A stretch of 64,000 bases of DNA, from the NCBI GenBank assembly GCA_963669155.1, contig OZ022593.1, positions 908,155-972,154 of the forward strand. The letters run 5' to 3'. Below are positions 4,540 to 41,569 of the stretch, piece by piece (the first letter of the stretch is position 1; each line of letters starts with the position of its first letter). This DNA comes from Arbacia lixula (taxonomy: Eukaryota > Echinodermata > Echinoidea > Arbacioida > Arbaciidae). A program made the translations under genes and the position numbers. The notes under the pieces were generated by a model. The model ran no database searches, was not told the origin of the DNA, and saw only the letters and a program-made list of their open reading frames with translations.

Positions 4540-4923
4540 TCGTCATTTTAGCGAATCCTATAAACTTCATCTACAAAATAGGCATGAAGGTTTCGGCATG
4601 TGAATCCTGAATCACGAGACTCACATGGCTTAGCGAAACATGTGACCATCATATGTTTGCTCTTGCTAAGGGTGTGGGGAAAGTCCACCATGTCCAAAAC
4701 ATTTTATATGAAAGGTGTTTTTGATGCTCCCTGGAAACTTTCTTACCGACATGCATCAATAATATAATATTACCATGATTATGGTATATGAACGGGGCTC
4801 TTAAGGTGAAAGAAAACATATTTTTGAAATCGGATATGAGTTTAACTGAAAACGGAGGGTATCAAGTGTGTCCTAAAAGCATTTGTTGCTCTGTCGCACA
4901 GCACTGATCTTGGTTAATTTGCA

Positions 4924-7440: not shown

Positions 7441-10160
7441 TTTGTTTATTTATTTTCACCATGCATAATATACAATCACATTGACAAGAACAGCGTATTA
7501 CATCAAAATAGAATACATAGTAGGAACAAAGCATAAACATAAATGTTTGAAGCGCAGAGTCCCTAGAATAACATAGTAGGTAATAAATTCGTTTCGTAAA
7601 ACATGGCTTGAAATAAAACATTCATGATTTCGTTTAATCGACAGAAATAAAAACAAATAAAATAAGAAAAAAATGTTAATCGTGCCCTCTTATCGTACTA
7701 TACCTCCTTACCCTGTCATAAAAGGACAGAAACACTTAAGTGTACCTCAAAAGCTATTATGATGAATATTTGGAGAGGAGTAATTCTTTCATATTCCGTT
7801 TAAATGATATAATAGTGCTACAATTTCGTATATGAGATGGTAACACATTCCAAATGTCAGGTCCTACATATCTAATTGATTTATGTGCTAAAGCAGTTCT
7901 TGGTGTAAACAAATGGAAATCAGAAGAATGTCTAGTTGGATAGTTATGAATGTCTCTATTTAAAGTGAAATCGTCACAAAATGATACAGGCAATTCTTTT
8001 TTGTTTAAGCGGTACATGAACACTGCAATTTGCATGAAATGAATATCAGTAATTTTCAATGTTTTTAGTCTAGAAAATAACGGATCAGTATGATCGAAGT
8101 ATCCAGACCCAGTACAGAGCCGTACGGCTCTCTTTTGTAGTCTTAAAATAGTATCAGTATTTGCTTTGCAATTTGCCCACTCTATGTTACAGTAAGAGAT
8201 GCGAGAATGAATAAAAGAATTGTAAATAATAAGCAAAACACGAAGTGGGACAAATGACCGCAGCTTGTACATTACACCAATATACCGAGACAAACTTCGG
8301 GAAAGGTCACGTACGTGCTCATGCCAAGAGAGGCACTCATCGATTAGAATTCCTAAGAATTTGGTGTTTTTCTTTTGTTGGATGGAAATGCTATCTATCT
8401 TCAATGAAATACTTATTTCTTCTTTCTGAGCACGACTTTTAAAATATATGAAGTTGGTTTTATCCAAATTTAACGACAGTTTATTACATTTAAACCAATT
8501 TGATAATTTGGGCAGTTCAGTATTCAACATATGAACAAGAGTTTGTAAGTTTGGATTGGAACAAAAAATATTGGTATCATCCGAAAATGATATATATTGC
8601 AATGAGGTGGAGACATTAGAAATATCATTCACATAAATAAAAAAGAAAAGAAGCGGACCTAAAATAGAGCCCTGCGGCACACCACATGTGATTGATGACA
8701 TAGATGATTTTGCATTATTGAAGGTTGTATATTGACTTCTACAAGAGAGATAACTACGGAACCAATCCAATGGTATGCCACGAATACCATAATGGTAAAG
8801 CTTCTTTAAAAGTATACTATGATCAAGGGTATCAAATGCCTTACTTAAATCCATAAAAACTCCTATGACATGTTCATGATTGGTTAAGCAGATGATACCC
8901 TATCATTTAACTTCACAATAGCATATTCAGTTGAATGAAATTTCCTGAATCCATATTGATCATTATTAAGTAACTTATTGGCAATCAAAAATGTATATAA
9001 CCTATCATAAACGAGTCGTTCTAATATTTTTGAAAAACATGAAAGTATAGAAATGGGCCGATAATTGGTAAATGAGCTAGCATCACCTTTCTTATAAATG
9101 GGTATTACTTTTGAAATTTTCATCATTGAGGGAAAACTACCAGAGGATAATGACAAGTTAAAAATATAAACGAGAGGTTTAATTATACTTCCAATAATAT
9201 TCTTTAACAAATGTGTATTAATCTCGTCATGTCCAGTTGAATGACTGGAATTAAGTGATGCAACAATCCACGTGACCTCAACTGCATTTGTTGAGTTAAA
9301 AAATATACTATTTACGGAGGGATTAAATAGAAAGTTTTGGAAATTTTGACTACATCCCTTAACTTTAGAGGCCTGTTCGGCACCTATGTTTGCAAAGAAA
9401 TTGTTAAAACCATTTGCAATTTCATGTGGATCACTTACAATTCTATCACCGTGTTTAAACTGAGTTGAATGGGAAACATTACCCCTTTTCAGAATATCGT
9501 TTACTATTTTCCACTTTGAAGAAGAGTCATTAGCCTGTACAAACTGTTTAGTGTATTACATTCTTTTATATGTACGTATAACATGAGTTAGTTTATTTCT
9601 GTATTGCCTATATTCTAGTTTCTTCAGGTCGGTAGGATTACAAAGGCTTTTTTTTATAAAGCCTATTTCTATGTTTAATGGATTTTAAGATTCCTTTAGT
9701 AATCCAAGGATGTTTGGGTACATTTTTCCGAGCTTTGATTTGAACGTTTGGTATATTGACATTCAAATAGTTTGTTAATGTTTCTATGAACCTTTGATAA
9801 GCAACATCGATGTTATTGCTATTGAAAACATCATTCCAGGTTTCCGACATTAAATCTGTTTTAAACTTTTCTATATTTTCTCCTGTGAATTTACGAGCTT
9901 CAATGGCATTCCTATTAGTTCTTTTTTTTTATATATATAACTGGGAAGAAACAAGAAAATAGGCAAGTGATCGAAACTTCAGAATAAATAAGACCTGATT
10001 CAATATCGTATTCAGAAACATTGGTAAATATATTATCAATTAAGGTGCTAGTATTTTTATCTATTCTTGTTGGTTTAGTAATTGTCGAGAACATAGCATG
10101 AACATTTAATAACGTATTTAAATCATCAGTAATATCATTGTCAGAAAGCAAATCAATATT
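7440..10160 (-). mobile_element. Degenerate non-LTR retrotransposon (CR1/L2/Jockey-like LINE) inserted in a minisatellite
   Basis: Minus-strand frames at 9915-10151, 9638-9850, 8884-9210 and 7757-8854 carry, in order, the end of an APE-type endonuclease (ITKPTRIDKNTSTLIDNIF) and a reverse transcriptase. RT motifs are VIPIYKKGD, NYRPISIL, MDLSKAFDTLDHSILL, CGVPQGSILGPLLF and FSDDTNIF. The catalytic box reads FSDD rather than the usual FADD. The frame is broken at least three times, with a frameshift between the 8884 and 8854 blocks and another before the SDH motif of the endonuclease. No 5' end or ORF1 is seen. GT/GA repeats flank both sides. It differs in sequence from the LINE at 12.6-16.7 kb. 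Confidence 0.9.
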
Positions 10161-11310: not shown

Positions 11311-12080
11311 GAGACACTCAGTAAGAAGGTCTTTCTTTTACTTTTAACTGCTTAACACGTAATTTATCCTTTAATACAATACATGCCACCAGGTACCATG
11401 TTTTAAAGTATTCACGATGTAATTAATGTATTTATGTAAGAATGTTACTTTGTATTGTAATGCTGCGCTGGACATGTCATTTCTGATAACTCCAGTCTCC
11501 AGACTTGTGTCTTGTCCCTTGCCTTGTCACTGGATGCTTGTCGAGCCTTCGGTCTTTGCACATCGGACAGTGTGTATTACCATGATTACTGGGTGTATAA
11601 TTCAAATTATCACATATAATGCGGGTGACTTTAATGGACCACCCCCCTTTTTTTCTTCTGAATAATCATATTCATACTGAACAAGTGAAATACTGAAGTT
11701 TCACTCACAGATAAACAAAATTATATGTTAACAATTCTTACAGAGTTTCGTGAGAAAGGCTATAAATTCCTTTGAAAATTCTGATCTGGTATCGATATAC
11801 GAGATGTCACTAGCTGATATCTGACTTAGCATTCTCTTCAAGAAATGGTTTAGCATCATGAATACTAGCTTGACTTCTAATGTCACTGGCATTCTAATGC
11901 AGAAACAGGCCCTAAGTTAAAGTTTCCAATTACCAAATCCAAGATTTATTCCTGTTCAAACTCCTGACCTTGGCACATTTTCTGTCAAGTCTTATGTAAT
12001 GTAATTGTAAAGAAGTAACATCAAAATGACTTCTAACTGTTATGGTGAAATGTCTGATTTCATATTTCAGCACAGACGAA

Positions 12081-15000
12081 ATGGCGCTCTTGTGGGGCGC
12101 AGCGGCCGCAGCAGTGGGTGGGCTCATCATAGCCAACATGGACTTCTGGTTGCCGAGGGGCGGAGCCTTGACTAGTGAGGCATTCCTGGCCGAGACGACC
12201 CTTCAGCTAATGACAGAATCCCGTATAGAGAAGCAGCTGAGTCTCGTTGATGAGGCTCTTAGGACCTTTAAAGCCAAGGATCTGTGGAGGGAAACGGGAG
12301 CAGTTGTGCTGGCTGTCCGACGGCCTGGATGAGCCTTATGTAGAGAGGTAGAAATGGATGACAAAGTACACTTGACTAGAATGCTAGAGCAATTACACTT
12401 CCTCATACACGTTATCGTGTTGCCCTTGTTGTAATGACAGTTGTGATGTGCGATCAAAATGCTTATATTTTTTTTGCGATTTGTTGCCTTAAAATTGCTC
12501 TAAAATAACATATTTAACTTACTAACCCTACCCTACCCCTAACCCTATTCTATTCCAGATCCTAACCCTTAACTAATTTCAAGTTTCAAGTTTCAATTTA
12601 TTTTCATATTTCTCAATACACATGGATAACAAACATATTACAATCAAACTTAAACAATGTGGTCAATCTTATAACAGCAGTATTGATTGAAGTGAGAAAT
12701 ATGATGGGACCTGCATAGAAGCAAGCTTGTAGAGCTGCAGGTCCCATATAAATTGAGATTATATATCACAAAGGAGAACGGAACGTTATGTGTGTGACCA
12801 AATCAAACACTATACAGCTAAATCATATAAGACAAAAAAGAACCCATAAGGCGAACCACTTATGAAATCTTAGACTAGTCCTTATTCTAGCACGAAAAAC
12901 AATTATATTCAGTTATGTTCTTGCCGTGGTATTGTGTTCAGTACATTACATGTCGTTCCCGTTTGCCATTGTGATACTAGTTTAGTATGAATAGAACATA
13001 GGCTGTAAAAAGCTATTAATAGCATACGAATGAATAATCAATGAATAATCAAGGCCAAGCTATGGTGCTCTGAGAAGCAATCTTGTATATAAGCTGAATG
13101 TATATTAAGGTGTGAATTCGATCCATTATGATTCCCAGAGCACCAGCGCTGGGACAGAATACACTTGAACCCAGTGAACATTATACAACAATGAAATAAT
13201 GCGTATTGCTGAATCAGATACAGTGATTGCGTAACAACTTTGAAATATCAATCAGGGTTCCACAATATAATCATTCAATAGAAAGTCTTTCAATTTACGT
13301 TTAAGAGAATATAAAGTTGAGCAACCTGTAATTTGTGTTGGAAGGTCATTCCAGTACTTAGGCCCTGTAAATATTATAGTATTTTTCGCAAAAATGGTGC
13401 GAGTACGCGGAAGGTGATATGCGTCACTTTGTCGAGTGGGATAATTATGAATTGAGCTGTTTCTTCTAAACATATGAGAAAATACATTGGGCAGTTCATC
13501 TACGGATAACTGATACATAAATATGCCTAAATTATAACTGTAAAGGTCTATTATTTTTAGTATCTTATCTTTATGGAATAAATGATTAGTATGAGATAAA
13601 TACCCAGCATTATTTACGTTTCTAATGGCGCGTTTTTGAATACAAACAAGGGCATCCAGATGAGTTTTGCAAGCATTTCCCCAAACAAGAATTCCATAAT
13701 TAAGATATGGGGTTATTAACGTTGAATATAAACCAAGTAAGATATGATGTGGAAAAACATGTTTGAGTTTATTCAAAATTCCAGAATTCCGGGAGAGAAC
13801 TTTGCTTAAATAATTAATGTGAGATTTCCAGGACAAATCACTATCAATAGACAAGCCCAAGAATTTAGTGTTATTTACTTTTTTTAATTCAGTGTTATGA
13901 ATATTTACATTATTCGGAAGCTCAGTTAAAGTATTACTAAAAAGCATATAATGCGTTTTATCTATATTTAAGGATAGCTTGTTTGCAAATATCCAAGACT
14001 GGACATGTGTAAGCTCCAAATTAATGGTATTAACAAGATTATGAGGGTCTCGATCTGTGAGGAACAAGTTAGTGTCGTCTGCAAAGCATATAAATGAGAG
14101 CGCTTGCGAAGAATTTGGAAGGTCATTTATATATAAGATGAATAAAAGTGGGCCCAAGAGAGAACCCTGTGGAACACCACATGTAATCAATTTTTGTCTA
14201 GAATCCCGCCCCTTAATGCTTACAAATTGTTTTCTGTTCGTTAAATAGTCTTGAAACCAGTTTAAGGCTTTACCACGTATTCCATAGTGTCGTAATTTAT
14301 AAATTAGAATATCATGATTGATCGTATCGAATGCTTTAGAAAAATCAAGGAAAACGCCAATGGTGTGGGAAACGTCGTCTATAGCATGAGCCACTTTGTC
14401 TATAACTGAAAGCAATGCATGGGTTGTACTATGTTTTTGTCTAAAACCAAATTGGGAATTACCTAAGATGTTGTACTTCGTCAGAAATTTAATCAAACGC
14501 TTATAAACTAATCTTTCGAGTACTTTTGAAATAGATGTAAGGAGGGAAATTGGACGGTAATTATCAAGGGTATCTTTTTTCCCTTTTTTAAAAACTGGAA
14601 CAACCCTTGCTATTTTCATTTTATTTGGAACTGTTCCACTGGTTAGGGATAAGTTTAAGATATATGTGAGAGGAGATATTATTTCATTAACGACGTTTTT
14701 AAGTAGAAAGTTTGTAATACCGTCATAACCAGAACCCTTTTTAGTATTTAAATTATCAATAATTTCCTTAGTTTCTGCTTCAGTGATAGGTTCTAAAAAT
14801 AAGGAATGGGGGTTATTATCTTTTAAGAAACTGTGAAATTTCGCATTTGAGTTCGGAATATTTTCGGCAAGATTTGGACCTATGTTAACAAAGAAATCGT
14901 TAAATACTTCCGCCATGTCAGTGGGGTCATCAATTTTACGATCACCCAGTGTAATACTTTGGGGAGACTCAGAGTTAGTTAACTTGTTTAAAGCTTGATT

Positions 15001-18000
15001 AATCACCTTCCACGTACTCTTTACGTCATTTTTATGTTTTTCAAATTGCCTAGAGTAGTACATTTTCTTAGATAAACGTAACGACGATGTAAGAATATTG
15101 CGATAACGTACATAGCGAGATTTATTGCTAATGGTAGGAATACGTCTATATTTGTTGAACAATTTATTTTTCCGAGTGATTGACTTAAGGAGAGATTTCG
15201 TGATCCAGGGCTGTTTTGGAATTTTCTTTTTGTTCTTTTTATTCATTTTTAAAGAAGGTATAGCAGAATTATAATTGTAAGTTAGTATATGCATAAAGTT
15301 TTCAAATGCTAAATTCACATCGTCTTGATTATTGACAATTGCCCAATCAACAGATCTTAATCTCTCTCTAAGTTTGTTAAGATTGGTTTGAGACATATCA
15401 CGAATACTAGATTGGTTAGTGTAATCATTACTACGTGCACCTTCGAAAGGCAAAAAGGCATATATTGGGAAATGGTCCGAGATATCAGATACTATTACTC
15501 CAGATTCGATGTCAGATAAAGAATTATTCATAAATATGTTATCAATAAGAGTTGATGTCTCATCTGTCACTCGAGTAGGTTTCGTTATAAGAGGAACAAA
15601 TGATTTAGAAAGCATCAAATTGAGAAAATCTCGACTGGAATGGTTTTCATGACAGTCCAAGAGATTTATATTGAAATCGCCCATAATGACACAGTTCTTA
15701 TTATCAAGATGTCGATTTGATAGCAGTGTATCAAGTAACGCGGTAAATTCGTTAACACTTGAATTTGGAGGTCTGTAGATTTCTCCAACTATAATATTTC
15801 TTTTATTTGGAACACTGATTTCAATAAAAATACTTTCAATAGTTTCTGTAATCAAGTTGAGTTCTTCTACTAAATCACATTTCAAGCTTTGGGAAACATA
15901 AAACCCAACGCCTCCACCTCTTTTACCAGTCCTATCATTTGTAAAAAGTTTGAAACCCTCAATGGTATACAGGGATGAAGGTGACATGTCATTGAGCCAA
16001 GTTTCACACAGGCCAATTATACCGGAGTCTAATTTTAATTTATTGATAAATGTGTGAAGCTGATCAAAGTTTTTATTTAGACTCCTGATATTAAAGTGAG
16101 ACATGAAGAGTTTGTTTGGATTTGAGTGAGAAAGTGCAAAGATCTCGTCTTCTAAATGATAATTAGTGCACTGATTCTGGTTGGTCGTATCGTTAGGATC
16201 AAGATCAAGGTTTAGTTCCATATTTAGTGAATTTAAACTAGTAGCTGTAACTGAATTGTCACCTTCATCACTATCTACATTGTTTACATGTACATTATTG
16301 ACATCGGGTTGAGCATTTATAGTCTGAATGGGTATATTGTTCGTAACACTCGTATGAAGAGAATTACTCATCATGGCAATCAAGCAAATAGGTCGAAAAT
16401 ATTAAGAGCTTGTTATAAAACACAAATAGTCTTGTCACTAGGCAGACAAACATCAGTACGAAACAAAGGGCAGCCAAAGAATGTGAAGCAACACGTTTTG
16501 TTAAGTAGAACATATCAGTAGTACGAATACAGGTGAGCAGTTGTACAATACAAAAGACAGCCAAAGAATTAGGAACTACGCATTGAGGAATGTAAAACTT
16601 ACAATAAATTCCAATGACCACAAACATGAGATGGGATGCATTTGTAGAGACACGCCAGGTGGTTTCTTTACGTAACAATTTGACTGAGTTTAGCTGTTGA
16701 TTCATCCAAGAAACTATCAAAATTTATACAAATGAGGAAAGTGGCTGTCTGATGAAGTATAAAATACAGAAAATACGTGAATACCACATGTAATATAAAA
16801 ACAGTAAAAAAAGAAAAGTTGTTCACTCGCCAATGGTGGTTTTGCTATAATATGCAGGGTAGCTCTGTTCAAGGTTTCTCATACATGTACCTACATGTTT
16901 CATGGTCTTAAGGTCTTTTTTTGAATTTGTGGATACAGCTTGTTCCAGCACTAGCTCTGACAATGGGTGAGCTCATTATATAGGGGGGGGGGGGGGGGGG
17001 GAGGGGCGGGGCGGGGGGGGGGGGATATTTCTACAATAATACTCAAAATGAAAACAATAATAATAACCAAAATGTCTTTTAAACTTAGGTTAGCCTCATT
17101 AGTGTGTCTAGGCTTTTTAAAAGGTTGCTTTTTTATCATTTCCTCAGTCACTGGATCAACGAATCTCACTGGGCCCCTATTTCTCTCATGGAAGCGAATC
17201 ATGGCTTGTTACAGAAAACTTACTTTTGATGGTAACTTTGCTACCAATGCCAATTTCTATTGAAACATTGCATGTGGTTTATTGTCATTAAGTCCAGCGA
17301 TGTTACCACAATACACTAGTTACCATTAATGGTAAGTTTTATGCAAAGGGGCCCAGAGCAAAGTAGGTAGTGGATTAAAGCATTTTGCTGCAGAACATAA
17401 GTGGCAGCTTCTGGCTTTGAACCTTATCCTCCTTAAAAATACTTTAAATGTTATTTGGAAGAGTAGGTCTAGAAACTTGCATTATTTGTTATGTTTTTTT
17501 GTTTTTTTAGGAAGCCCAGGTGCTGTCCTCTCTGAAACCGGAGCTGGATGCCCGCGGTATCCCGCTCTATGCCGTCGTTCTGGAAAAGGGGGGCTACCAA
17601 GAGTTCTTGCCCTTCTTTGCTGGTGAGGTCTTCCTTGATAAAGAGGTAAGATCAAAGGGAACTGTGCGACTAATGGCTTGTTCATTTTAATTAAAGGAAA
17701 TGTACTGTACTGGGAAGACAAGAAGCCTTCAAAAGGATGAGCATGAGCAATCTTCTTGCCATGTTGAGGTAGGCAAAAACATCGCCATGAGTGATTGGTG
17801 GTATTTTCCTCAAGTCCTTCGTCCATGTAATAACCCTTCCATTTTAATGTTGCAAGGTTTTCGAGGGTCGAAATTACAGATTCTGGCGTTATTGCATGAA
17901 TTGAATACGTACCAAGCTCTTACCGGAAGTATGCGTCCCAAGAGCAATCGATCAGATATCGGTATCGGGAGGTGTTATCGCTTGATATTGGCTATTTGCA

Positions 18001-19251
18001 ATAGGGAGAATTGTTTGCATGTATCATCAGACCAGAGTACATCTAACAGTTTGTTTACGGAGCCTGGATATTTGCGGGCTGCCTTTTCCCCACTCAGACA
18101 CTGAGCACGGCGACTCCTGCATAATCTGCTACACTTTTACAATATATGACAGGAAATGAACGATCTTTCAATTTCTTACTGGGAGGAATAAAGCCACACT
18201 TCTTGGTTACTGCATTTCCATGGCAAATTTTGACATGCAGGCTATGGTTCATAAAGCCCCCAAAAATGTGAACGTGAAGAACAGGTTAATGTATGAGCTG
18301 TTATTCTCATGAATCACTGGAGAGTTGTGAATTCAACAACACAAAAATATTGTGTATGCACCAGACGCTACTGCGCATGTACATGAACCAGGGATGGCGA
18401 TCTCGCCATGGGGCATGGTGTATTACAGGCATTGTGAAAACAACCCCCGGAAGTGTCGGGAACTCATTCATTCATATAGGCTGTTACAGAACCATCCGCG
18501 TCAGATTCTTGTATAAATTTTTGCTTTATACCCTATCTCATTCAGCGACGGTTCTATGGTGAAGAGCAGAGGGTGCTGAGTCTGGCTGGCTTACTTCGGC
18601 TCTCCTCATTCACCAAATACAGAGAATTAATGAACAAAGGGATCTCTGGCAACCTAGAAGGTGAGGCTTTAGACATGGAAAATGCACAAGACATTTAGTC
18701 TTTGGCTAGATTGTAGTGAAAGGGCTTTCTGTGGTAATTTCGATTTTGAAAAGAAATTTTAGGTGTACACTCAGTAGTACTAAGGATAGCGTGAAAATAA
18801 GTATCTTCTTAGTAAATTGGTTTTAACCCATCAACTTTAACCGGTCAATTTTTGAGCATTGCACTTGTTACTTTTGAATTCTAGTTGAGGCCTCTTCATG
18901 CCACTAGTATTTAATCAAATTTAATTGTAGAGGATAGTTGTTTTATTTTATACGTTTTATTTATAGTTGTTTTTACCATGTGAATTGTCACAATTTAGCT
19001 GTATGGTTGCGAAGATGATTTAAGAAAAAATGCATTGCAATACGGCAGAGATACAGTGTGATGTATGTATGAATCTCTGTTACTCTCATACAGGTTACGG
19101 CCTCACTCTTGGTGGGGTCTTTGTGATCGGCCCGGGAGACCAGGGCGTCCTCCTAGAGTACCGCAACAAGGACTTTGCCGACCACGTCAGCAACGACGTT
19201 ATCCTGGAAGCCGTGAAGAAAATAGCCGCACCTCGTCCAGCCAAATTATAG
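12081..19251 (+). CDS. SELENOU: Selenoprotein U / peroxiredoxin-like 2A, four exons, in-frame TGA read as selenocysteine
   Basis: Coding exons are 12081-12347, 17511-17645, 18546-18660 and 19094-19251. They total 675 nt, giving 224 residues including one TGA. The protein aligns along its whole length with human PRXL2A (FAM213A): an N-terminal hydrophobic segment (residues 2-18), FKAKDLWRETGAVVLAVRRPG, then U-A-L-C-RE where the human protein has CFLC, then IPLYAVVLEKG, GEVFLD, RRFYG, SGNLEG and LGGVFVIGPGDQGVLLEYR. This thioredoxin-fold family includes SelU, in which Cys is replaced by Sec in fish, birds and sea urchin. It is thought to act in redox control. The start at 12081 follows an acceptor at 12070; an in-frame ATG at 12042 lies in the intron. 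The exon 1 donor is GTAGAA, which is weak, but frame and homology support it. Two SECIS elements follow in the 3'UTR. Intron 1 holds a large LINE. Confidence 0.93.
12330..12332 (+). other. Selenocysteine codon (TGA) of SelU
   Basis: TGA replaces the first Cys of the CxxC-type motif known in PRXL2A; the partner Cys (TGT, 12339-12341) is kept. Coding homology continues in frame past TGA to the donor and then into exon 2 (RE|EAQVLSSLK). The codon lies 15 nt before the exon junction. With three more junctions downstream, the mRNA could be open to nonsense-mediated decay when selenium is low (inference). Confidence 0.93.
12515..12575. repeat. Telomere-like CCCTAA-rich stretch
   Basis: Degenerate CTAACCCTACCCTACCCC-type words run beside the 3' end of the LINE at 12578. 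A similar stretch lies at 62587-62668 within an inverted-repeat element. These are interstitial repeats, not a telomere. Confidence 0.5.
12578..16750 (-). mobile_element. CR1/L2-like LINE with open ORF2, in SelU intron 1
   Basis: The element is antisense to SelU. Its 3' end is marked on the plus strand by TTTCAAGTTTCAAGTTTCAA at 12578. Its 5' end is not defined; sequence to about 16750 may be its leader. It holds one long frame (13252-16383) with endonuclease and reverse transcriptase. No ORF1 is seen, so it is either 5'-truncated or a single-ORF type. Confidence 0.85.
13252..16383 (-). CDS. LINE ORF2: APE endonuclease plus reverse transcriptase, 1043 aa, uninterrupted
   Basis: About residues 85-320 form an APE-like endonuclease: HFNIRSL, CETWL, RGGGVGFYV, IYRPPNS, IMGDFNINLL, STLIDNIF and SDHFPIYAF carry the usual catalytic N, E, D, N and SDH sites. 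About residues 555-830 form the reverse transcriptase: VVPVFKKGKKD, NYRPISLL, QFGFRQKHST, LDFSKAFDTINHDIL, CGVPQGSLLGPLLFILYINDL and FADDTNLF. The tail after NTKFLGLSID is typical of these elements. The proteins nick target DNA and prime cDNA synthesis on it. The full frame and intact active sites imply a young insertion. The N-terminal 80 residues are acidic and Asn-rich and not recognised. The start at 16383 is the first ATG. Confidence 0.92.
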   Translation of the reverse strand: MIAMMSNSLHTSVTNNIPIQTINAQPDVNNVHVNNVDSDEGDNSVTATSLNSLNMELNLDLDPNDTTNQNQCTNYHLEDEIFALSHSNPNKLFMSHFNIRSLNKNFDQLHTFINKLKLDSGIIGLCETWLNDMSPSSLYTIEGFKLFTNDRTGKRGGGVGFYVSQSLKCDLVEELNLITETIESIFIEISVPNKRNIIVGEIYRPPNSSVNEFTALLDTLLSNRHLDNKNCVIMGDFNINLLDCHENHSSRDFLNLMLSKSFVPLITKPTRVTDETSTLIDNIFMNNSLSDIESGVIVSDISDHFPIYAFLPFEGARSNDYTNQSSIRDMSQTNLNKLRERLRSVDWAIVNNQDDVNLAFENFMHILTYNYNSAIPSLKMNKKNKKKIPKQPWITKSLLKSITRKNKLFNKYRRIPTISNKSRYVRYRNILTSSLRLSKKMYYSRQFEKHKNDVKSTWKVINQALNKLTNSESPQSITLGDRKIDDPTDMAEVFNDFFVNIGPNLAENIPNSNAKFHSFLKDNNPHSLFLEPITEAETKEIIDNLNTKKGSGYDGITNFLLKNVVNEIISPLTYILNLSLTSGTVPNKMKIARVVPVFKKGKKDTLDNYRPISLLTSISKVLERLVYKRLIKFLTKYNILGNSQFGFRQKHSTTHALLSVIDKVAHAIDDVSHTIGVFLDFSKAFDTINHDILIYKLRHYGIRGKALNWFQDYLTNRKQFVSIKGRDSRQKLITCGVPQGSLLGPLLFILYINDLPNSSQALSFICFADDTNLFLTDRDPHNLVNTINLELTHVQSWIFANKLSLNIDKTHYMLFSNTLTELPNNVNIHNTELKKVNNTKFLGLSIDSDLSWKSHINYLSKVLSRNSGILNKLKHVFPHHILLGLYSTLITPYLNYGILVWGNACKTHLDALVCIQKRAIRNVNNAGYLSHTNHLFHKDKILKIIDLYSYNLGIFMYQLSVDELPNVFSHMFRRNSSIHNYPTRQSDAYHLPRTRTIFAKNTIIFTGPKYWNDLPTQITGCSTLYSLKRKLKDFLLNDYIVEP
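17130..17435 (+). repeat. Interspersed repeat (possible tRNA-derived SINE) split by a small inverted-repeat element
   Basis: ATTTCCTCAGTCACTGGATC and later GTGGATTAAAGCATTTTGCT, GTGGCAGCTTCTGGCTTTGA match a copy at 55684-55835 and, on the minus strand, one at 49728-49880. In those copies the two parts are adjacent. Here about 150 bp of another family (17207-17354, ACTTACTTTTGATGGTAAC...GTAAGTTTTATGCAA) lies between them, which indicates a nested insertion. GGTTCAAATCC-like words recall a Pol III B box. Confidence 0.5.
17703..17770 (+). repeat. Fragment of the 340-bp foldback family seen at 43193
   Basis: GTACTGGGAAGACAAGAAGC and GAGCAATCTTCTTGCCA match the arm of the element at 43193-43531. 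The fragment lies just after SelU exon 2. Confidence 0.5.
17915..18018 (+). repeat. Copy of the right end of the 62.4-62.8 kb inverted-repeat element
   Basis: CTCTTACCGGAAGTATGCGT, AGCAATCGATCAGATATCGG and AATAGGGAGAATTG repeat at 62732-62832 with few changes. It is in SelU intron 2. Confidence 0.65.
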
Positions 19252-19637
19252 TTATAAAACATTTCGTCCTCCCAAGCTAAGATTTGATTGATTATTTGTT
19301 GTTGAATCACTCTTCAATCTCATCAGATTGTTTGCACCAGGTCACATGTTGCTTCACACGTTGGATGTCTTCAACATACTCTGTACCGCTATGTTTATTC
19401 TCTGTAAATGTTGATTTACTAGGAAAAATTCTGAATTACACCCTGATACTCACTGCAACAGTAGAGTCGGACGTGGTAGCGCTATGTAGATAGCTGTTTC
19501 TCCTGATAGGGTAAGTGTCATTTCAAAACACTGTCACCACCTTAGTAATCACAAAAACAATAATGAAATATTTAAGTACTCTATAATACTGGTAAGATAA
19601 CATGGACATCGCAATCAATATCGGAACTATTAATGCT

Positions 19638-20180
19638 CAATATGTTACTCATTGCGGATCAATGGCTTCTGATAATTGTGTGTCTTGCAATGTGAGGTAA
19701 ACGGAATTGAAAAGATCACAACGTTTTGTGCGCCGCTGCAACACTTCGTCAGGTGTGATACAAAATTGTAGTAAATAGGGGTTTAAATACCCTAAATACC
19801 CTATGCAGGGCACTAACTAAAATCTGCTCATAAATGGTCCAATACTAATGGCCGGCGTATCCGGGTACTTGACCAACACTAGATCATTGATGCGCCTCGC
19901 ATTGGCCTCGCATTGACCAGCGGTAACAAGTTACCGTCAATACGAGGCGCATCAACGGTCTATTGTTGGTCAAATACCCGGATACGCCGGCCATTAGTAT
20001 TGGACCATTTCTGAGCAGATTTCAGTTAGTGCGCTGCACTTGTCATCGGGTATTTAAACCCCTACTTACTACAATTTTGTATCACACCTGACGAAGTATT
20101 GCAGCGGCGCACGAAACATCATGATCCTTTCGATTCCGTTTACCTTACATTGCGAGACAAACGATTATCAGTAGCCATTT
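19638..20180. mobile_element. Large foldback element in the SelU 3'UTR
   Basis: Two arms of about 255 bp are near reverse complements, centred near 19930. AATGGCTTCTGATAATTGTG at 19661 pairs with a segment ending at 20179, and GCCGGCGTATCCGGGTACTT pairs with the CGGATACGCCGGCC region at 19980. A short relative sits at 38812-38905 in MZB1 intron 1 and shares the same end words and the flank ATGTTACTCATTGC. It lies between the SelU stop codon and the SECIS elements. Confidence 0.8.
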
Positions 20181-20334
20181 ATAGCCATTTTTTAATTTAT
20201 ATCGTACATGCAGTATTTTCTATAGGAATATTACAGAATGCTTGACTTTGATAAATACAAAAGTATTGCTTTTGCATTCAATTAGTAATTTAATAACTTG
20301 AATGCAAGCAATTGGACATTTGCAGAAGAAAATA

Positions 20335-20545
20335 TGAGCAGTGTGTATAGATGTGTGTCATAGGTCCATCCTTGCCCCCAAAGCAAAGTCTTTCTTTCAT
20401 GGATAATCAATAAAATGACAACCTTGCTCCTAAACGCTCACCGAGTGCTGACAGGGTTTGATAATAAAGCGATACTCCTGAAAGAAAGTTTTTCTTTCCA
20501 ACGCAGAGGGTGGACGTACAGACTAACATCTTTCACCGAGTTTTG
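20335..20545 (+). repeat. Unit 1 of a 245-bp duplication carrying SECIS 1
   Basis: GTGTATAGATGTGTG at 20343 recurs at 20590, TCTTTC.TTTCATG precedes both SECIS elements, and ACATCTTTCAC follows both (about 20526 and 20767). The units have diverged, so the duplication is not recent. Confidence 0.75.
20415..20462 (+). promoter_or_regulatory. SECIS element 1 (type II) of SelU
   Basis: The core ATGA (20415-20418) faces TGAT (20459-20462) to form the non-Watson-Crick quartet. Helix II pairs 20420-20426 (AACCTTG) with 20452-20458 (CAGGGTT), seven pairs including one G-T. The apical AAA is at 20432-20434. An extra mini-stem pairs CGCTC (20435-20439) with GAGTG (20443-20447), which makes it form II. 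SECIS elements recruit SBP2 and eEFSec-tRNASec to recode UGA. It lies 1.16 kb after the stop codon. Confidence 0.88.
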
Positions 20546-20579
20546 TTTGTAACTTTTATTATTTGAGCCATTTAAAAGA

Positions 20580-20790
20580 ATTCTGCAGGGTGTATAGATG
20601 TGTGAAGTAGTTACACGCTTCTGTCAACACCAGAATCTCTTTCATGATTACTTGACAAAATGACAGCCTTGTGCCCAAACACTCTCAGAGTGCAGACAAG
20701 GCCTGATGATGGAGCAATGCTCATTGAAGTCGTTTAGTATTCACAAGAGTGTGTAACTACAGACACACATCTTTCACTAGATTTTTGTAC
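20580..20790 (+). repeat. Unit 2 of the 245-bp duplication carrying SECIS 2
   Basis: This unit matches unit 1 in order: GTGTATAGATGTGTG, CTCTTTCATG, the SECIS, then CACATCTTTCAC. The offset between the two ATGA cores is 245 bases. Confidence 0.75.
20660..20707 (+). promoter_or_regulatory. SECIS element 2 (type II) of SelU
   Basis: ATGA (20660-20663) faces TGAT (20704-20707). Helix II pairs GCCTTGT (20666-20672) with ACAAGGC (20696-20702), seven Watson-Crick pairs. The apical AAA is at 20677-20679, and a mini-stem pairs CACTC (20680-20684) with GAGTG (20688-20692). The helix is better paired than in SECIS 1. Base changes between the copies keep the pairing. Confidence 0.9.
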
Positions 20791-21309
20791 TCGATGTTTG
20801 TAATGTCTTACCAATGTATTCATGTATGTTGTAGGTCAGGGTGGTCACCAGCTATTTGTTTACATTGGTTGAAAAGGGCAGAACCTCACTTTTTGTGACT
20901 TTGTCAAATATCTGTGCTGGACACGTGGTACACAGCAATGGAATGGGTGGCTCAAAGAAAGCAAAAACAAGAATAATAGGACTGATACTGATTTTACGTG
21001 TGGCTCACATTCACTTTCACGGCCAGACATTTGGTGTCTGAGCCATACGTTTTCTGCCCTGGGGACCACCCTGAGTCTGTCTGCAAGAACTGATTTTCGC
21101 AAATGTGATAAAAGAATGTTCTTGAATGTGTCACATGCAGCCCAATAATGTGATTTATTATTTACAAATTATGATATGATTGCTTAGTCATGTATCTGAT
21201 TTATCACAACTGTTTCCTGATTAACTTGAAGTTGGAACTAATCAATGATGTACTGTAAATGTCATGTAATGTCAAACTTTTTATTTTGTGAAATACCAAA
21301 GAATTTTGC

Positions 21310-21315
21310 AATAAA
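21310..21315 (+). terminator. Candidate poly(A) signal of SelU
   Basis: AATAAA lies downstream of both SECIS elements and about 2.06 kb after the stop codon. The long 3'UTR it implies contains the foldback element and both SECIS. Confidence 0.55.
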
Positions 21316-21499
21316 ACATAAAATATCTTTATCATATAAATTTCTTGAATCTATCTTTGTTATTGAATTTTGTGAAGCTTGATGAACTTCTGCTCTGTCA
21401 AGGAGTGTCAGCATTCTTTCGATATCAGTTTATGTCATTGCAGACACATTGTAGAGAATGAGTGTAGGGGTTGTTGGAAATTTACAAGCCTGAGATGAA

Positions 21500-22370
21500 G
21501 GAGAGATAGAGAAAACGTGAGTGTGTGTGTCTATGTAGCGGGACGAGAATGGGGGGGGGGGGGGGGGGGAGGGGAGATGAGAGAGTGTGTGCATGTGCGT
21601 GCATGTATGAAGAAAGGATGGACAAATCAGAGGAGGGGAGATGAGAGAAAATGAGAGATGAGAAAAAGAAAAGGAAATCTTTGTAGTAATTTCTACAAAT
21701 TTGCAAACGAAGCCCCATTTTACAGTCTGAGTTTTTAAAACACCTAGTAGCTTTCCTGTACATATACTAAGTGTTAAAACAAGAAATGAGGCTTGACAAA
21801 TCAATATAAAAAATGTCATAACTATAAACTGGCTGAAACTTAAACTTGATCAAATCTCGAAGGTGTCATATGCTACCCCCCCCCCCCCCCTTTTTTTTTG
21901 TAAATAGAATGCACTCATCAAGTGGTGGCGTAACGCAAGATTTTGTTTCGTAGCCTAGATCAAGTCGCTAGAGTGGAAAAAAAGTATCTTCTAAAAAACA
22001 AAAACAAAAAAATTGATGTAAAAACAATCATATATATTAATAAATTGAAAGAAATATGCCAATAATTACATCACGATGAATTCATGTTGCATTTTGCATT
22101 ACATTGTCATGTGTGTTTCTAGACTGGATATCAAATTAATCTAACTGAGTCTGAAAACAAAGTTTTGCGTTCTGAGGGCTCGTCAGTCAGTTTTAAGTGA
22201 GTGGAACAGGCTCCCGCGATCTCTTAAAAGTCTACCTGTAAGTTTTGTTCATCGTAGCGTTGAATGCACTTAATGTTTCCCAAGTAGTTGTACTTATACA
22301 TCTGGGGAAAATTTGTGAGAATAGGTAAAGATGCAGCTGTATATATGACATCAATTTTGTAACTTTTCAT
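21500..22370. other. Spacer between SelU and renalase
   Basis: Contents are a poly-G/GA tract (21550-21660), a C11-T9 run near 21877 and otherwise AT-rich unique-looking DNA. No gene is seen. Confidence 0.5.
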
Positions 22371-34755: not shown

Positions 34756-35160
34756 GATGTGTGTGTCTGGGCGTGCATAGTCACTCCATCATTATTGTAC
34801 ATATCATGCTGTGTAGGATTGAAACCCAGATAGTTGTTATATACACTACAGCTCAAAGGAATTGGCATAGGGAAAGAGAAGGGGAAGAAAGGGAAGGATC
34901 CTCAGTTTTAAACTGCGGTATATTTGGTCAAGTTCAGCATGAAACACGATGCTTTAGCCTAAAAAGCATCATGTTTCATGCTGAACTGGACAAAATATAC
35001 CGCGGTTCAAAATTGCGACTCCTTCCCTTTCTTCCCTTTCCCTTTTTCTATGCCAATTCCTTTGAGCTGTAGTGTATGTGTATTTGGACGTGCATAGCCA
35101 CTCTGGCATTATTGAACATATCATGCTATGCAGGATTGAAACCCAGATAGTTGTTACATA
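34756..35160 (+). repeat. 85-bp direct repeat with a palindromic MITE between the two copies
   Basis: The sequence from 34760 to 34841 (CATCATTATTGTACATATCA, GATTGAAACCCAGATAGTTG) recurs at 35077-35160. The MITE at 34844-35074 lies exactly between the copies. Confidence 0.75.
34844..35074. mobile_element. Palindromic TA-flanked MITE, copy 2 of 6
   Basis: Same family as 33100-33329, ending CACTACAG...CTGTAGTG with TA on both sides. The centre is TTTAGCCTAAAAAGCAT. It lies 240 bases beyond the MZB1 stop codon, so probably in its 3'UTR. Confidence 0.87.
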
Positions 35161-35314
35161 GTTTAGACGAGGTAAGAGATGACATTATTCTGAAAACCCC
35201 ACCTTACATCTTCACGACACCACTTGTACGAATCTTGCAACAGGTCGCAGAGAACAGGAATGCAGAATGTGGCACACAACAGGAATGTAGAGATGAAAAC
35301 ACAATGCAAGATTA

Positions 35315-38300
35315 TTATAACTCTGTCTTGGGCTTCTTCTTCTTCCCACCCGTCTTCTTAGCTCCAGCCTTCCCTTTCTTCTTCCCTCCCTCCTTTGTCT
35401 TCTTCTTCTTCTTCTTCTCCTCTTCCTTCTTCTTCTTTTGGCAGACCCCCTTGGGTCCCTGGCACAGCCGTTTGCGGAGTTTTCCCTCCAGGTAGAACTT
35501 GTAGAGCTCTTCCTCTCCATACTCACCCAAATACCCCTCACACATTTGTAGCATTCTGTCAACAAGGAAAAAAACATCATGAATTACCTGCTGCTATGTC
35601 AGGTATAGCTCAGGATTTTAAAGTGTAACCCTCTTGCAGATTGTACCAAATTCTGTAAAACATGGTATGTGAAATACGAAATTTAGTACATGTAGTGACA
35701 TTATCAATGCAAGGGATAATGTACCACTTTGTAATAGGTGTTAACTAAACTTTTGACACTTTTGAAACAATTCTGCGAAATAAACTGAAATTAACGCATC
35801 ATAAATGCAAAGGATGTCAATTTTTTTTTGAAGCAGGTTTTGTGACATTTCATCAATTATTTTTATCATAATAATCCTGTGAATATTTAATGAGACCTCC
35901 ACTTTTGGACAAAGTTAGATCTAAAAACACATGTGTATCAGATAATTCATTTAGAACACAACAATGACCATTTTGTGTCACACATGTCAATCCACTAGCA
36001 ACTTCCATCATGATGCTTCTGGCAAAACAGAAGTTGTGGATTGACATGTGTGATGCACAATGGCCATTGTTGTGTTCTGAATGAATCATCTGATACACAC
36101 ACATTTTTAGATCCAAACTTGTCCAAAAGTGAAGAGCTCACTAAATATTCAGAGGATTATTACATGAAGAGTAAATGATGAAATGTCACAAACCTGCTGA
36201 ACTACAAAATTTGACAACCCTTGACTTCATGATGTGTCAATTCCAGCTTGATTCAAGTTACCACTTGTTCTAAAGTCAAGGTACATGTACACTCCAGTTC
36301 AAAGGAATTGGCATAGGGAAAGGGAAAAGGAAGAAAAGGAAGGAGCCAGTTTTAAACCGCAGTATATTTTGTCCAGTTCAGCATGAAACACGATGCTTGT
36401 GCCTAAAAAGCATCATGTTTCATGCTGAACTAGACAAACTATACCATGGTTTACAACTGCGGCTCCTTCCCTTTCTTCCCTTTCCCTTTCCCCATGCCAC
36501 TTCCTTTGAGCTGTAGTGTATGTCAGAATAGGGTAAATGGTAGAGCCTTACCTGTAGGGCCATTTGCCACCTCCCTGCATGATGCCTGGGACTTCTGCAA
36601 TCTTGGAGCCGGGACCAGACAACCGGTTCTTCCCACCAACCTCCTTCACTCCAACACTAGCAAGAGGGAGGATAGAGAAGGAAAATGAATGTTTCAAATA
36701 TCATATCATGTCTGCTTCAGGGAATAGATCTTATTTTCAAGGCTTTTGATTCAATAGTAAGGTTTAAACAAAAGGTAGAATTGTAAAATTCAAAGTAAAA
36801 TTCAAAGTACTAAAAAAGTAAAATTGCCCCAAAGAAAAAAAAAGTAGCATGTCCATTTTGATAAATGGTCTATCCAGTTTAGCTGAAGTTTTGTCACTCT
36901 TGGAATGAACATTGTTAATAACTTTTTGAAATGTAAATATGCCCTTGGGAAAATGTGTCTGTGCTTGTGTGTTGGGTGTGTATGTGCATACACCAGGGCC
37001 GTCGCCAGGGGGGGTGCGGAGGGTGCGAACGCACCCCCCTTCAGAACCCCCCCCCCAAAAAAAAAAAAATTACAAAAAAAAACAAAACAAAACAAAACCG
37101 GAGGGGGGGTAGGGATACTTGAGGGCTCTTTTGAAAAAGATCTAGGCGAAATACGTCATCAGGGAGAGTGCGGAGGGTGAGAACGCACCACCCTCCAGAC
37201 CACAATTTTTAAAAAAAATTTTTAGAAGGAAACTTTTTTTTTTTTGGGGGGGGGGGGGGAGGGGGGGGGCTATAGGTCTTTTAGATGGGCGAGCACTGCC
37301 TCACATCAGAATTGGTAATGTTTGTGTCTTTTCCCCCCAAACGCACCCCCCTTGAAAAAAGCTGGTGATGGCACTGTACACTACAGCTTAAAGGAATTGG
37401 CATAGGGAAAGGGAAAGGGAAGAAAGGGAAGGAGCTGCAGTTTTAAACCATGGTATATTTTGTCCAGTTCAGCATGAAACATGATGCTTTTTAGGCTAAT
37501 GCATCGTGCTTCATGCTGAACTGGACAAATTATACCGTGGTTTAAAACTGTGACTCCTTCCCTTTCTTCCATTCCCCTTTTCCTATGCCAATTCCTTTGA
37601 GCTGGAGTATATATCATTCCACTCAAAGTCAGTTTCTAGTTTCTAGTTCTAAAACAGTATTTTTCATCAATACTAATAATATCACTACCATTACTTCTAC
37701 TAAACATTCTTTGAAAAAAGAGGGTGAGCAATATGACTACCAGTAATTCTTCTTAAATTTAAGACAGAAAGTCACTAACAATGAAAATGATGGTATCGAT
37801 AAAAGAAATTATAACATATAGTTATAATCTTTATGATAATAATGACAAAGAAAATGTTACTCATTCATATTCCTACAGTTTTACTTTATTCAGCACAATA
37901 TATGGCTGGTTAAGGCGATCCAGCATGTACAGTATGTACAATACCATAAAGAGTGCCTCTTCAATTCATTTCAAGAAAGTTTTCTTCATATCTATGGCAT
38001 TCAGCAGCTGTGGCTGATTTACAGTAATTTACATTGTAAATTATATACAGTTTAAAAACATTGAACTGGTAACGACTATACAATTCAATTACATACAACA
38101 ACAGTTTAATTTCATTGTAAGTTTAAAAAAATACAATAGATTTTAAATACGAAGAGCATAAAAAGCCCATAAAAATAATTTGTTTTTCTCTACTGCATCT
38201 TTAATACTGATGTTGATAATACTAACAATATCAATAGCAATAATATGAACAACATTCATGATAACAAATAACAATTGCATGGCATTTCCCCCACTTGATT

Positions 38301-39251
38301 CCTAACTCGAGTACTTACTTGTTGAATTCATCGCTGCACAGTTCATCAAAGATGTCAATTATTTCTGATTCCGGGAGTTTCTTCTTCAGCGATGGTCGTT
38401 TTTTATTAGCTTTGTCCAGACGCTCAGTCATCTAAGATTTTCAAAAGTATAAGATGGTAATTGAAATTTGAGGTACGACTTAACTATACAGTAAAACATG
38501 TTTATCAAGACCACCCAAAGGATGCTTCCGATGCCAAAGCTGTGGTTTTGATAAACAGGTGGTTATTATATATACGGTTTATTGTGATACAGATTTCAAT
38601 GTTAAACATTGTTCAAGGGATACCAAAGTCATAGCTTTTAGAAGACAGACCTGTGGTTTTTCATACAGGTGATTGCTAAAGAGAGTTTCACTGTATAATA
38701 TGCAACATCACAGCTATCATTCTTGCTATGATATATAATTTGTTTGTTTTCTTCAGGATGAAATAGGATGCTGAACTGTACACAAAAATATAAAAAATCA
38801 GAAACTTGGCTAGTGATAATCATGTGTCTCGCAATGTATGGTTTACCATACACTGCGAGACAAATGATTATCACTAGCCAATTATCTGCAATGAGTAACA
38901 TATTTTGCATTAATAAGAAACTTGTTAGTAAAACAATTAGCCGATTACCATGTGAGTGAGGATAGTGCAGGCATCGCACTTCATGTCCGTCGGGAGATGT
39001 GGAGAGTGGTAGTCATCATCGAGGTCGGGCGTGGACCAGTTAATCGTCCCCAGCGAGTCGCCTGCCCCAAGCTGATGGGCGTTGATTTCTTCTTCCTCGT
39101 CATCCTCCTCTTCATCTTCTTCATCCTCCCAGCCGTGGTCTCTTATTTCGTCATCATCCTCATTTGCATGCGCGACATCTGCTCCTATTAAACAGATGAG
39201 AAACATGAATCCAAGCAGCAGGAGCAATCCTGTTTTCGACTTGGCATTCAT
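35315..39251 (-). CDS. MZB1: MZB1/pERp1-like ER-resident saposin-like (canopy family) protein, four exons, complete
   Basis: Minus-strand exons 39251-38949, 38431-38319, 36656-36552 and 35555-35315 join in frame to 253 codons plus TAA. Residues 1-29 form a signal peptide (MNAKSKTGLLLLLGFMF...). Residues 30-60 are extremely acidic. The core matches human MZB1: YHSPHLPTDMKCDACTILTH (human YSAHMPAHLRCDAC), FDELCSDEF, GVKEVGGKNRLSGPG, GGKWPYR, CEGYLGEYGEEELY and LCQGPKGVC. All six family cysteines are present. The C-terminus has a Lys-rich tail and ends KTEL, a KDEL-type ER retrieval signal. In mammals MZB1 is an ER co-chaperone that helps IgM assembly and calcium handling. An antibody-lacking animal must use it on other clients. 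An in-frame upstream ATG at 39332 would put 27 residues before the signal peptide; I prefer 39251. Confidence 0.9.
35790..36240. repeat. Long inverted repeat (arms about 215 bp) in MZB1 intron 3
   Basis: Arms are centred near 36015. ACACAACAATGACCATTTTG pairs with CAATGGCCATTGTTGTGTTC, AGGTTTTGTGACATTTCATC pairs with ATGAAATGTCACAAACCT, and CACTTTTGGACAAAG pairs with CTTGTCCAAAAGTG. Arm identity looks around 85-90 percent by eye. It would form a very long hairpin in the pre-mRNA. Confidence 0.75.
36290..36518. mobile_element. Palindromic TA-flanked MITE, copy 3 of 6
   Basis: Starts CACTCCAGTTCAAAGG and ends CTGTAGTG with TA at both ends. It sits in MZB1 intron 3, only 33 bases beyond the exon 3 donor (36551-36546 on the minus strand). 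Confidence 0.87.
36991..37376. mobile_element. Inverted-repeat element, possibly hAT-like, in MZB1 intron 2
   Basis: CAGGGCCGTCGCCAGGGGGG at the left pairs with AGCTGGTGATGGCACTG at the right. Within it GTGCGGAGGGTG.GAACGCACC is repeated twice, with A, T and G homopolymers. No clear 8-bp target duplication was found. The palindromic MITE copy 4 starts three bases after it. Confidence 0.5.
37379..37609. mobile_element. Palindromic TA-flanked MITE, copy 4 of 6
   Basis: Starts CACTACAGCTTAAAGG and ends CTTTGAGCTGGAGTA; TA lies on both sides. It is in MZB1 intron 2. Confidence 0.85.
38489..38693. mobile_element. Small pogo-like MITE in MZB1 intron 1
   Basis: It begins CAGTAAAACATGTTTATCAA and ends GAGAGTTTCACTG, flanked by TA on both sides. 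Inner words GATACCAAAGTCATAGCTTT and GATGCCAAAGCTGTGGTTTT are near repeats. Confidence 0.5.
38812..38905. mobile_element. Short foldback, relative of the SelU 3'UTR foldback
   Basis: A near-perfect hairpin: GCTAGTGATAATCATGTGTC pairs with the sequence ending TGATTATCACTAGC, with a four-base loop near 38845. The right flank reads GCAATGAGTAACATAT, the complement of the left flank of the element at 19638. It is in MZB1 intron 1. Confidence 0.75.
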
Positions 39252-39254
39252 TGT

Positions 39255-39780
39255 AATCTTCGCCTGAGCTGGGCCTGGATAACAACAGCAGCCGGAGTAG
39301 AATTTGGATCGGGACGTTGACCGAGTTTTCAAGGGGAAGTGCTGGCCTGGATAATTTCAGAATGACGCTAGCCGAGGTGAAGCCGCTGAAAATATTATCC
39401 AAATTAGCAACACTGCAGTCAGCAATTATTGTTCGTAGTCACACTCTACAATGCTCAACCTTGGGTGTCTTGGCAGCAAATCGCGTAGACGTAAAATCCT
39501 TCGGCTGTGATTTATGGGAAAGATTATATAACGCCTGTAGATGTTAACAATCTAAGACGACGTGTTGTCAAATCACACCCTGGACGTCGACTCACAACGC
39601 TAAACGATGTCAACGTATCAGCGAATCACATTGCTATTGGGACACGTTCAATAAGGCACACACTTTATTACTACATGATTGTATCGCATGCATTATGCAG
39701 AGTGGGCGTGCACTCAGCTGGCAACTCAACAGTTGTTTACGGCAAAAAATGGATGAAGCCCTCTAGCGGTTATATTTTCA
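39255..39780. promoter_or_regulatory. MZB1 upstream region (candidate promoter)
   Basis: Non-repetitive DNA with scattered CpG lies just upstream of the MZB1 start on the minus strand. No TATA box was fixed. It is followed by the CCA tract and, 1.8 kb away, the start of a divergent PDZ gene. Confidence 0.3.
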
Positions 39781-39813
39781 CATTTGATTTTTTTTAATTG
39801 GGGTTTTTGGTCA

Positions 39814-40672
39814 CTACCACCATCACCACACCCACTAGGCCACTACCAACACCACCACCATCACCGACACTAACACTAAACAACTATCAACACCACAACC
39901 ATCAGGTCACCACCACCACCACCACCACCACCACCACCACCACCACCACCACCACCACTACCACCAACATCACCATCACCAACCAGCACCAACACCAACA
40001 CTACTACCAACCCTCTACCACTGTCACTTCCACCATCACCACCACCACTACCATCACCACTATCATCACTACCACCATCACTACCACCATCACTACCACC
40101 ATCACTACCCCTACCATCACTACCACCATCACAGCAATGCACAACAAATTTCCTACCACTGTTTCCACCTCCCACCAGGGATATGCATCACAGATACATA
40201 CCTCACAGGCTCACAACCACCACCACAATCCCATTTTACCAATTATGTACAACATTACCACCACCACCACCACCACCACCACTTCGGCGCTTCCACCACC
40301 ATCATGATACCATCACCACATACTCGTATATCATGTACATGATGTATGTAACCACCACCACAACTTCATCATCACTTATATCCCGTACCACCACCATCAC
40401 TGCATTCTACCAATTCCAACATATACCACCACAACCACCACCACCATGCACCACCACCACCACCACCACCACCACCACCACCACCACCACCACCACCACC
40501 ACTTCGGCACTTCCACCACCATCATGATACCATCACCACGTATACTTGTATATCATGTACATGATGTATGTAACCAACACCACAACTTCCATTCCCCCCC
40601 CCCCTCCCCACGTATACTTGTACATGTATATCATGTACATGATGTATGTAACCACCACCACAACTTCCATCG

Positions 40673-40703
<31 letters not shown>

Positions 40704-40705
40704 CC
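39814..40705. repeat. CCA/CAC trinucleotide tract with 50-bp sub-repeats and poly-C
   Basis: (CCA)n arrays at about 39906-39956, 40256-40284 and 40430-40501 are mixed with CACTACCAC variants. A longer unit (TATATCATGTACATGATGTA then TGTAACCACCACCACAACTT) occurs three times near 40327, 40549 and 40628. Poly-C runs at 40672-40702. Open frames across it give only Thr/His/Pro runs. Confidence 0.9.
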
Positions 40706-40919
40706 ACCAAAACAACACGCAACCGCATGCACATGGCTCAATCTCTTTCCGGTGAAAGAAGAGGGTCTGGAAACAAACTACGGTATGTCATAACGGTATT
40801 CAGCTCGCACACGCCGCATACACAATGTACTGAGTGTAATCCCGGTCGGTCTAGTACATCGACTAGCAAACGGGTTTGGTCTGGGATTTGTTGCGAGCAG
40901 AGGACGTTGTACTTTGAGA

Positions 40920-40951
40920 TGGAGCAAATAAAGAACAGTTTCAAAAGCTAA
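40920..40951 (+). other. Possible short upstream ORF before the PDZ gene
   Basis: An ATG starts a ten-codon frame (MEQIKNSFKS) that ends at TAA before the main ATG. It counts only if transcription starts upstream of 40920. Confidence 0.2.
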
Positions 40952-41046
40952 CGTAGAAATACCGAGTAAACCCTGTGAACAGCAGACTGACAGTACTGGA
41001 ATAACGACAGAATCGTGCCGAAACGTGGGATTTTAACAGCAAGAAC

Positions 41047-41483: not shown

Positions 41484-41569
<86 letters not shown>

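Follow-up and report, generated by a model that had tools for sequence, protein, structure and literature searches.

The window, the whole 64-kb stretch of DNA analysed here (C18:908155-972154 of the 607-Mb assembly), carries on its + strand a PRXL2A/SelU1-like gene, SelU-a, with four coding exons and AG/GT borders. The coding part of exon 1 (12081..12347) starts MALLWGAAAAAVGG and ends AVRRPG-UGA-ALCRE, after which a donor GT follows; it is continued by exon 2 (17511..17645, AG/GT borders placed by hand), exon 3 (18546..18660) and exon 4 (19094..19251, terminal TAG at 19249-19251). The spliced frame, in which three exons were joined by program and the 135 nt of exon 2 were inserted by hand, has 225 codons including the stop, and its only internal stop is the TGA of codon 84 (12330..12332, AVRRPG-TGA-ALCRE), placed in the redox motif AVRRPG-U-x-LCRE. 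The single in-frame TGA reported in an earlier note on this DNA is thus borne out, and with one TGA in the spliced frame SelU-a is not a multi-Sec gene like SELENOP. The protein matched Pfam PF13911 (1.2e-14), and among 57 proteins found at E<=0.001 the top match was S. purpuratus PRXL2A (73% identity over 91%), with which the N-terminus also agrees, so that the source is likely an echinoid; a search of the PDB returned two prostamide/prostaglandin F synthase chains. PRXL2A homology together with a TGA at the redox Cys position identifies SelU-a as a SelU1/PRXL2A selenoprotein. In the sequences retrieved for relatives from S. purpuratus, Patella and Rhinophrynus, the Sec position is Cys (U may be displayed as C), and in a Diadema antillarum model, a 45% relative, exactly the Sec-position segment is absent, which would reflect the behaviour of the gene predictor at a Sec TGA. 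The intron after the Sec exon contains a minus-strand open frame (13252-16401, 1049 aa) that is non-LTR retroelement-like by eye, and a second open stretch on the minus strand (7757-9928) is also retroelement-like.

The probable 3'UTR of SelU-a, on the + strand like all features of the gene listed below, would occupy 19252..21330 (end approximate), with an AATAAA at 21310..21315 as the likely distal poly(A) signal. A palindromic insertion of ~525 bp, MITE-like by eye, lies upstream of the first SECIS (19658..20182); its arms match at 90% (19658-19792/20048-20182) and 92% (19804-19904/19938-20038), and if transcribed it would fold into a hairpin of great length next to the SECIS units. Elsewhere in the window, several long palindromes at ~34860-43450, which weakly match various miRNA precursor families of Rfam at scores under the respective cut-offs, are probably more MITE-like repeats.

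Two SECIS of 48 nt each, SECIS1 and SECIS2, were found in this 3'UTR at a spacing of 245 bases, about 1586 and 1831 nt downstream of the Sec UGA after splicing (a distance to which the 135 nt of exon 2 were added by hand). SECIS1 (20415..20462) comprises ATGA at 20415-20418, a helix II of 7 pairs (20420-20426/20452-20458), AAA at 20432-20434, a mini-stem (20435-20439/20443-20447) and TGAT at 20459-20462; SECIS2 (20660..20707) comprises ATGA at 20660-20663, a helix II with 6/7 pairs and a basal A.C (20665-20671/20697-20703), AAA at 20677-20679, a mini-stem (20680-20684/20688-20692) and TGAT at 20704-20707. Both elements therefore show the form-II features, namely the ATGA/NGAN quartet, a paired helix II, an unpaired AA(R) and an apical mini-stem, here of 5 pairs, and the AAA stands at offset 17, which is the usual form-II spacing. 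The earlier note had ascribed the quartet, the AAA, the mini-stem and a seven-pair helix II to both elements; the first three were confirmed in both and the last in SECIS1 only. Its statement that the differences between the elements preserve pairing likewise holds only in part, because the basal helix II pair has gone from A-T to A.C in SECIS2; the other helix II changes keep their pairs (A-T to G-C on both sides, T.G to T-A on one side), and in the mini-stem G.T is replaced by A-T. The ensemble fold of the full UTR (2079 nt) gave P 0.79-1.0 for the six inner helix II pairs of SECIS1 and SECIS2 alike, and for the basal pair P 0.53 in SECIS1 and P 0 in SECIS2. One further AATAAA lies shortly upstream of SECIS1 (20409..20414), and another adjoins its 3' end (20463..20468), has no counterpart in the second copy and is a possible proximal poly(A) signal.

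Each SECIS is located near the tip of a predicted hairpin of ~200 nt, SECIS1 in unit 1 (20338..20540; -63.6 kcal/mol, z -4.6) and SECIS2 in unit 2 (20585..20781; -63.7 kcal/mol, z -4.0), and as stable a fold was attained by 1/200 shuffles of unit 1 and 0/200 of unit 2. The alignment of the two units has 197 ungapped columns, of which 61 differ (69% identity), so that coordinates and alignment agree with the duplication noticed earlier. When the substitutions were scattered over the sister copy, the resulting energies were -42.6 +- 4.3 and -44.2 +- 4.4 kcal/mol, and 0/1000 scattered controls attained the real MFE (-63.6/-63.7) in either direction; since the units are stable beyond these controls, selection probably kept both SECIS copies. 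The two folds share 32 pairs, none of which can be broken, given how they were chosen: 25 are the same in both copies, 3 have one-side changes and 4 have changes on both sides (one of the 4 to a G.T wobble). Broken in the sister are 16/65 pairs of unit 1 (null 22.5, P 0.016; 4/65 fall in gaps) and 18/61 pairs of unit 2 (null 23.5, P 0.047), counts only mildly below the null, and therefore the two folds share an overall plan more than individual pairs; much of the fold is rebuilt, not kept pair by pair. Within the UTR ensemble the left arms paired with their own right arms at a mean of 0.64 and 0.41 per base and with those of the other copy at 0.00, and the 77-nt arm duplexes reached -54.6 and -47.6 for own partners versus -30.2 and -36.5 for crossed ones. 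By these computations the arms have diverged and each prefers its own partner.

The two elements were examined with a SECIS descriptor (RTGA, AA at offset 15-18, >=6/7 pairs, energy <= -9), which returned exactly 2 matches in both strands of the 64-kb window, SECIS1 (-10.6) and SECIS2 (-13.8), compared with 16 matches in 5.12 Mb-strand from 40 dinucleotide shuffles (~0.4 expected); a laxer descriptor on the + strand of 12001-22000 again gave these two only. Real sequence is harsher than shuffles, as in loci of the genome scanned with it the descriptor also picks SECIS-resembling repeat copies. A covariance model, R1, was built on five SECIS that belong to other genes of this genome, with SelU left out and the structure set by hand. 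It ranked SECIS1 1st in the window (20.5 bits, E 0.0082) and SECIS2 2nd (15.8 bits, E 0.15), the next hit having 11.1 bits (E 2.6); these E-values are rough, and SECIS2 alone is not significant. The sensitivity of R1 is limited, because it reported neither the SelW-like nor the SelU-b SECIS described below.

Rfam SECIS_1 produced no match in the window at its gathering score (35); on 2.2 kb at E<=10 it gave 17.9 bits for SECIS2, below that score, and did not report SECIS1. Applied to 7 other SECIS of the genome, it scored 5 at 25.5-36.4 bits (1 passing, 4 below the cut-off) and did not report 2/7 at E<=5. For this genome the cut-off is therefore over-stringent, and it is not what defines the family; SECIS_1 was rejected as sole judge since it misses or under-scores most SECIS of the genome. 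Scoring by covariance models, which the earlier note had named as a possible refutation, is favourable for R1, with both elements on top, and weakly so for SECIS_1, with SECIS2 subthreshold and SECIS1 absent. A genome scan with SECIS_1 at E<=10 yielded 19 matches, TXNRD alone being above the cut-off, and at least 10 of the others are copies of two SECIS-like repeat sequences. Repeat families among these matches (L004-L019) mimic SECIS in ATGA, AAA, TGAT and paired arms and are a trap for genome-wide SECIS scans. Taken with the sequence features, the descriptor and R1 support two tandem form-II SECIS in a single-Sec SelU gene.

Further Sec genes were located by family and SelU protein queries (TXNRD via Rfam SECIS_1), and their 3' flanks were then scanned; Pfam PF13911 found no SelU exon in the genome, whereas the SelU protein query did. 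One SECIS each was found for a GPx1-like gene (L029, 3147), TXNRD with VTGC-TGA-G (L034 minus, 6668), SelU-b with AVRRPG-TGA-SLCK (L062, 886 on the gene strand, with AATAAA at 999), a SelW-like gene (L036, 1409 on the gene strand) and one deiodinase (L046, 4906). The Sec TGA was read in GPx1-like, TXNRD and SelU-b, and the SelW-like gene and the L046 deiodinase are classed as Sec genes solely on homology and their SECIS. The SelU-b SECIS has an energy of only -7.6 and a SECIS_1 score of 25.9 bits, and about 5-6.5 kb of its flank was scanned. A GPx4-like gene on C5, whose Sec TGA lies near L030:222 and whose last coding exon starts at about 2582, has two SECIS, at L030:4221-4268 (-18.5) and 4649-4698 (-16.4) on the gene strand, about 1.6 and 2.1 kb past the start of the last coding exon, with SECIS_1 scores of 27.5 and 25.5 bits, below the cut-off; AATAAA and ATTAAA are absent between 2722 and 5857. 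A recent tandem duplication was rejected for this pair, which does not align (local score 16, attained by 197/200 shuffles). Two SECIS were thus found in 2/7 genes with any SECIS (SelU-a and GPx4-like).

These counts per gene are lower bounds, because two further deiodinases with a Sec TGA (SAS-TGA-PPLR; L040:849 on the gene strand, L041:764) gave no SECIS by descriptor in about 10 kb past their last exons (L047, L049); either the descriptor misses real SECIS or the SECIS lie elsewhere. A fourth deiodinase locus has one weak candidate (L048, -8.0). The standard descriptor found none for two Cys-form GPx genes (NVASDCGYT; L032, L033) and a further GPx locus (L031), and the 3-kb locus of a SelU relative on C11 (L061) gave no SECIS either. 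At C18:13269438-13271999 minus and C11:23385307 lie other members of the SelU family whose match contains a TGA. Candidates of the laxer descriptor were left uncounted: L030 6920 (-9.4) and 8569 (-6.4), L031 2799 (-7.4), L032 3041 (-12.4, GTGA, Cys-form GPx locus), L060 287 (-8.1) and read-strand 8121 of L036 (-11.7, GTGA).

Long enclosing stems are shared by SECIS of other genes (L029, L030, L036, L046, L062) and the window, being seen in 8/9 and longest in the two-SECIS genes. The 77-nt flanks pair mutually in 8/9 SECIS (z -3.7 to -7.6; TXNRD -0.05), and of 449 control windows at most 9 by z and at most 13 by energy reached any of the eight. When 77-nt flanks were swapped between genes, the own flanks were best in 8/9 (0/16 swaps better in each; TXNRD 10/16). 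Own flanks were not best at 25 nt for the second SelU-a SECIS (10/16) and for the second GPx4-like SECIS, TXNRD and SelU-b (5/16 each), nor at 50 nt for the second GPx4-like SECIS (2/16), SelW (1/16) and TXNRD (6/16). In the outer zone (25-100 nt) pairing was significant for both SECIS of SelU-a and both of the GPx4-like gene (z -3.4, -5.2, -3.3, -2.9; at most 1/300 shuffles each) and not in the five single SECIS (z -1.1 to +0.2), a contrast that is post hoc, sets two genes against five, and includes SECIS within one gene that are not independent.

The alignment shows that a ~245-bp segment of the SelU-a 3'UTR with a form-II SECIS was tandemly duplicated, and according to the computed folds both copies retained the SECIS core and a ~200-nt hairpin presenting it. 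Each SECIS would bind a SECIS-binding protein (SBP2/SBP2L) and bring eEFSec and Sec-tRNA to the same UGA, the second SECIS may add dose or robustness of recoding, and the AATAAA at 20463 may yield an additional shorter mRNA with SECIS1 only. From sequence and predicted folds, we consider it reasonably probable that the duplicated SECIS both work on one UGA as a device of redundancy or dose, possibly with a SECIS1-only short form. The working of both is supported because they are the only two descriptor matches, hold the top R1 ranks, retain their stability and have a counterpart in the GPx4-like pair; against it stand the broken-pair counts so close to the null, the missing Rfam report for SECIS1 and the lower R1 score (E 0.15) and broken basal pair of SECIS2. 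One SECIS suffices elsewhere, as five other genes, including the SelU-b paralogue, show one each.

The hairpins might owe their upkeep to mutation rather than selection, as quasi-palindrome correction by template switching copies arm onto arm and gives paired double changes. Inverted repeats are well known to mutate in this way, and 3/4 of the double changes are in outer arms; the unpaired core motifs are nevertheless intact as well, although they would gain no protection from correction, and since 8/9 SECIS pair in their 77-nt flanks beyond nearly all control windows, pairing is tied to SECIS, which leaves this explanation quite improbable. It is also unlikely that only one element works and that the other persists by chance as a relic, a situation with a printed precedent in the upstream SECIS of human Sep15 (according to passages of PMC2874816). 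The elements do differ in quality, SECIS2 being favoured by energy and seen alone by Rfam and SECIS1 being favoured by R1, in the opposite order. However, after 31% divergence the quartet, AAA, mini-stem and hairpin stability are intact in both, and no scattered-substitution control was equally stable; the predicted retained structure argues against a decayed copy.

Alternative mRNAs, with cleavage after the AATAAA at 20463 leaving SECIS1 only and the distal signal giving both, would make the pair less a dose device than a regulatory switch, a possible though doubtful account. The position of this AATAAA directly 3' of SECIS1, and its absence in unit 2, fit alternative polyadenylation, and with the UTR truncated at 20485, 20495 or 20560 the helix II of SECIS1 was still predicted to form (mean P 0.90). 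A poly(A) site between the two SECIS of human SELENOP is used in 10-25% of its mRNA, according to passages of PMC5133445. An AATAAA may however occur by chance in such a UTR, and cleavage there would leave the outer stem of unit 1 without its 3' arm.

The SECIS pair of SelU-a has partial parallels, described below as far as the passages of the cited sources give them. The view of the earlier note that two SECIS in a single-Sec gene are out of the ordinary needs qualification, as Ciona intestinalis SelW1 is already in print with a single Sec and a pair of form-II SECIS in its 3'UTR, and human Sep15 is a related case (PMC2874816). SelW1 resembles SelU-a in these respects and belongs to another gene family, and those passages mention no tandem duplication and no long hairpins around its SECIS. 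Human Sep15 also combines a single Sec with two potential SECIS, but its upstream SECIS, as recited there, is non-functional, whereas neither SECIS of SelU-a is clearly decayed. SELENOP likewise has a SECIS pair in its 3'UTR, with a mean spacing of 334 nt among the vertebrates studied (PMC5133445, PMC3316567), but unlike SelU-a it has many Sec codons, and the human pair is reported to consist of one type I and one type II element (PMC3737529). Amphioxus Bf.SelP_a, with two SECIS and without the C-terminal Sec residue (PMC3473315), is similar to SelU-a in both respects and differs as a SelP-family gene beside a multi-Sec relative. All 14 SECIS identified in S. purpuratus are form 2 (PMC2746813). 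In the openly accessible literature, at the level of search listings, we found neither an echinoderm SelU with two SECIS nor a long-stem SECIS.

SELENOP, the best-studied case of two SECIS per 3'UTR, combines them with many UGAs, which obscures their purpose. With a single UGA and two sister SECIS of common origin, SelU-a separates the number of SECIS from the number of UGAs, its paralogue SelU-b, for which one SECIS was found, offers a built-in control, and the sister copies give an internal gauge of which parts of the SECIS context are under selection. We tentatively suggest that paired SECIS could be a recurrent device for single-Sec genes (SelU-a and the GPx4-like gene) in this probably sea-urchin lineage, each element on its own long hairpin that does not cross-pair, so that two modules coexist without misfolding. 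With both SECIS copies still well folded at such divergence, SelU-a is a good natural test of the effect of a second SECIS at a single site.
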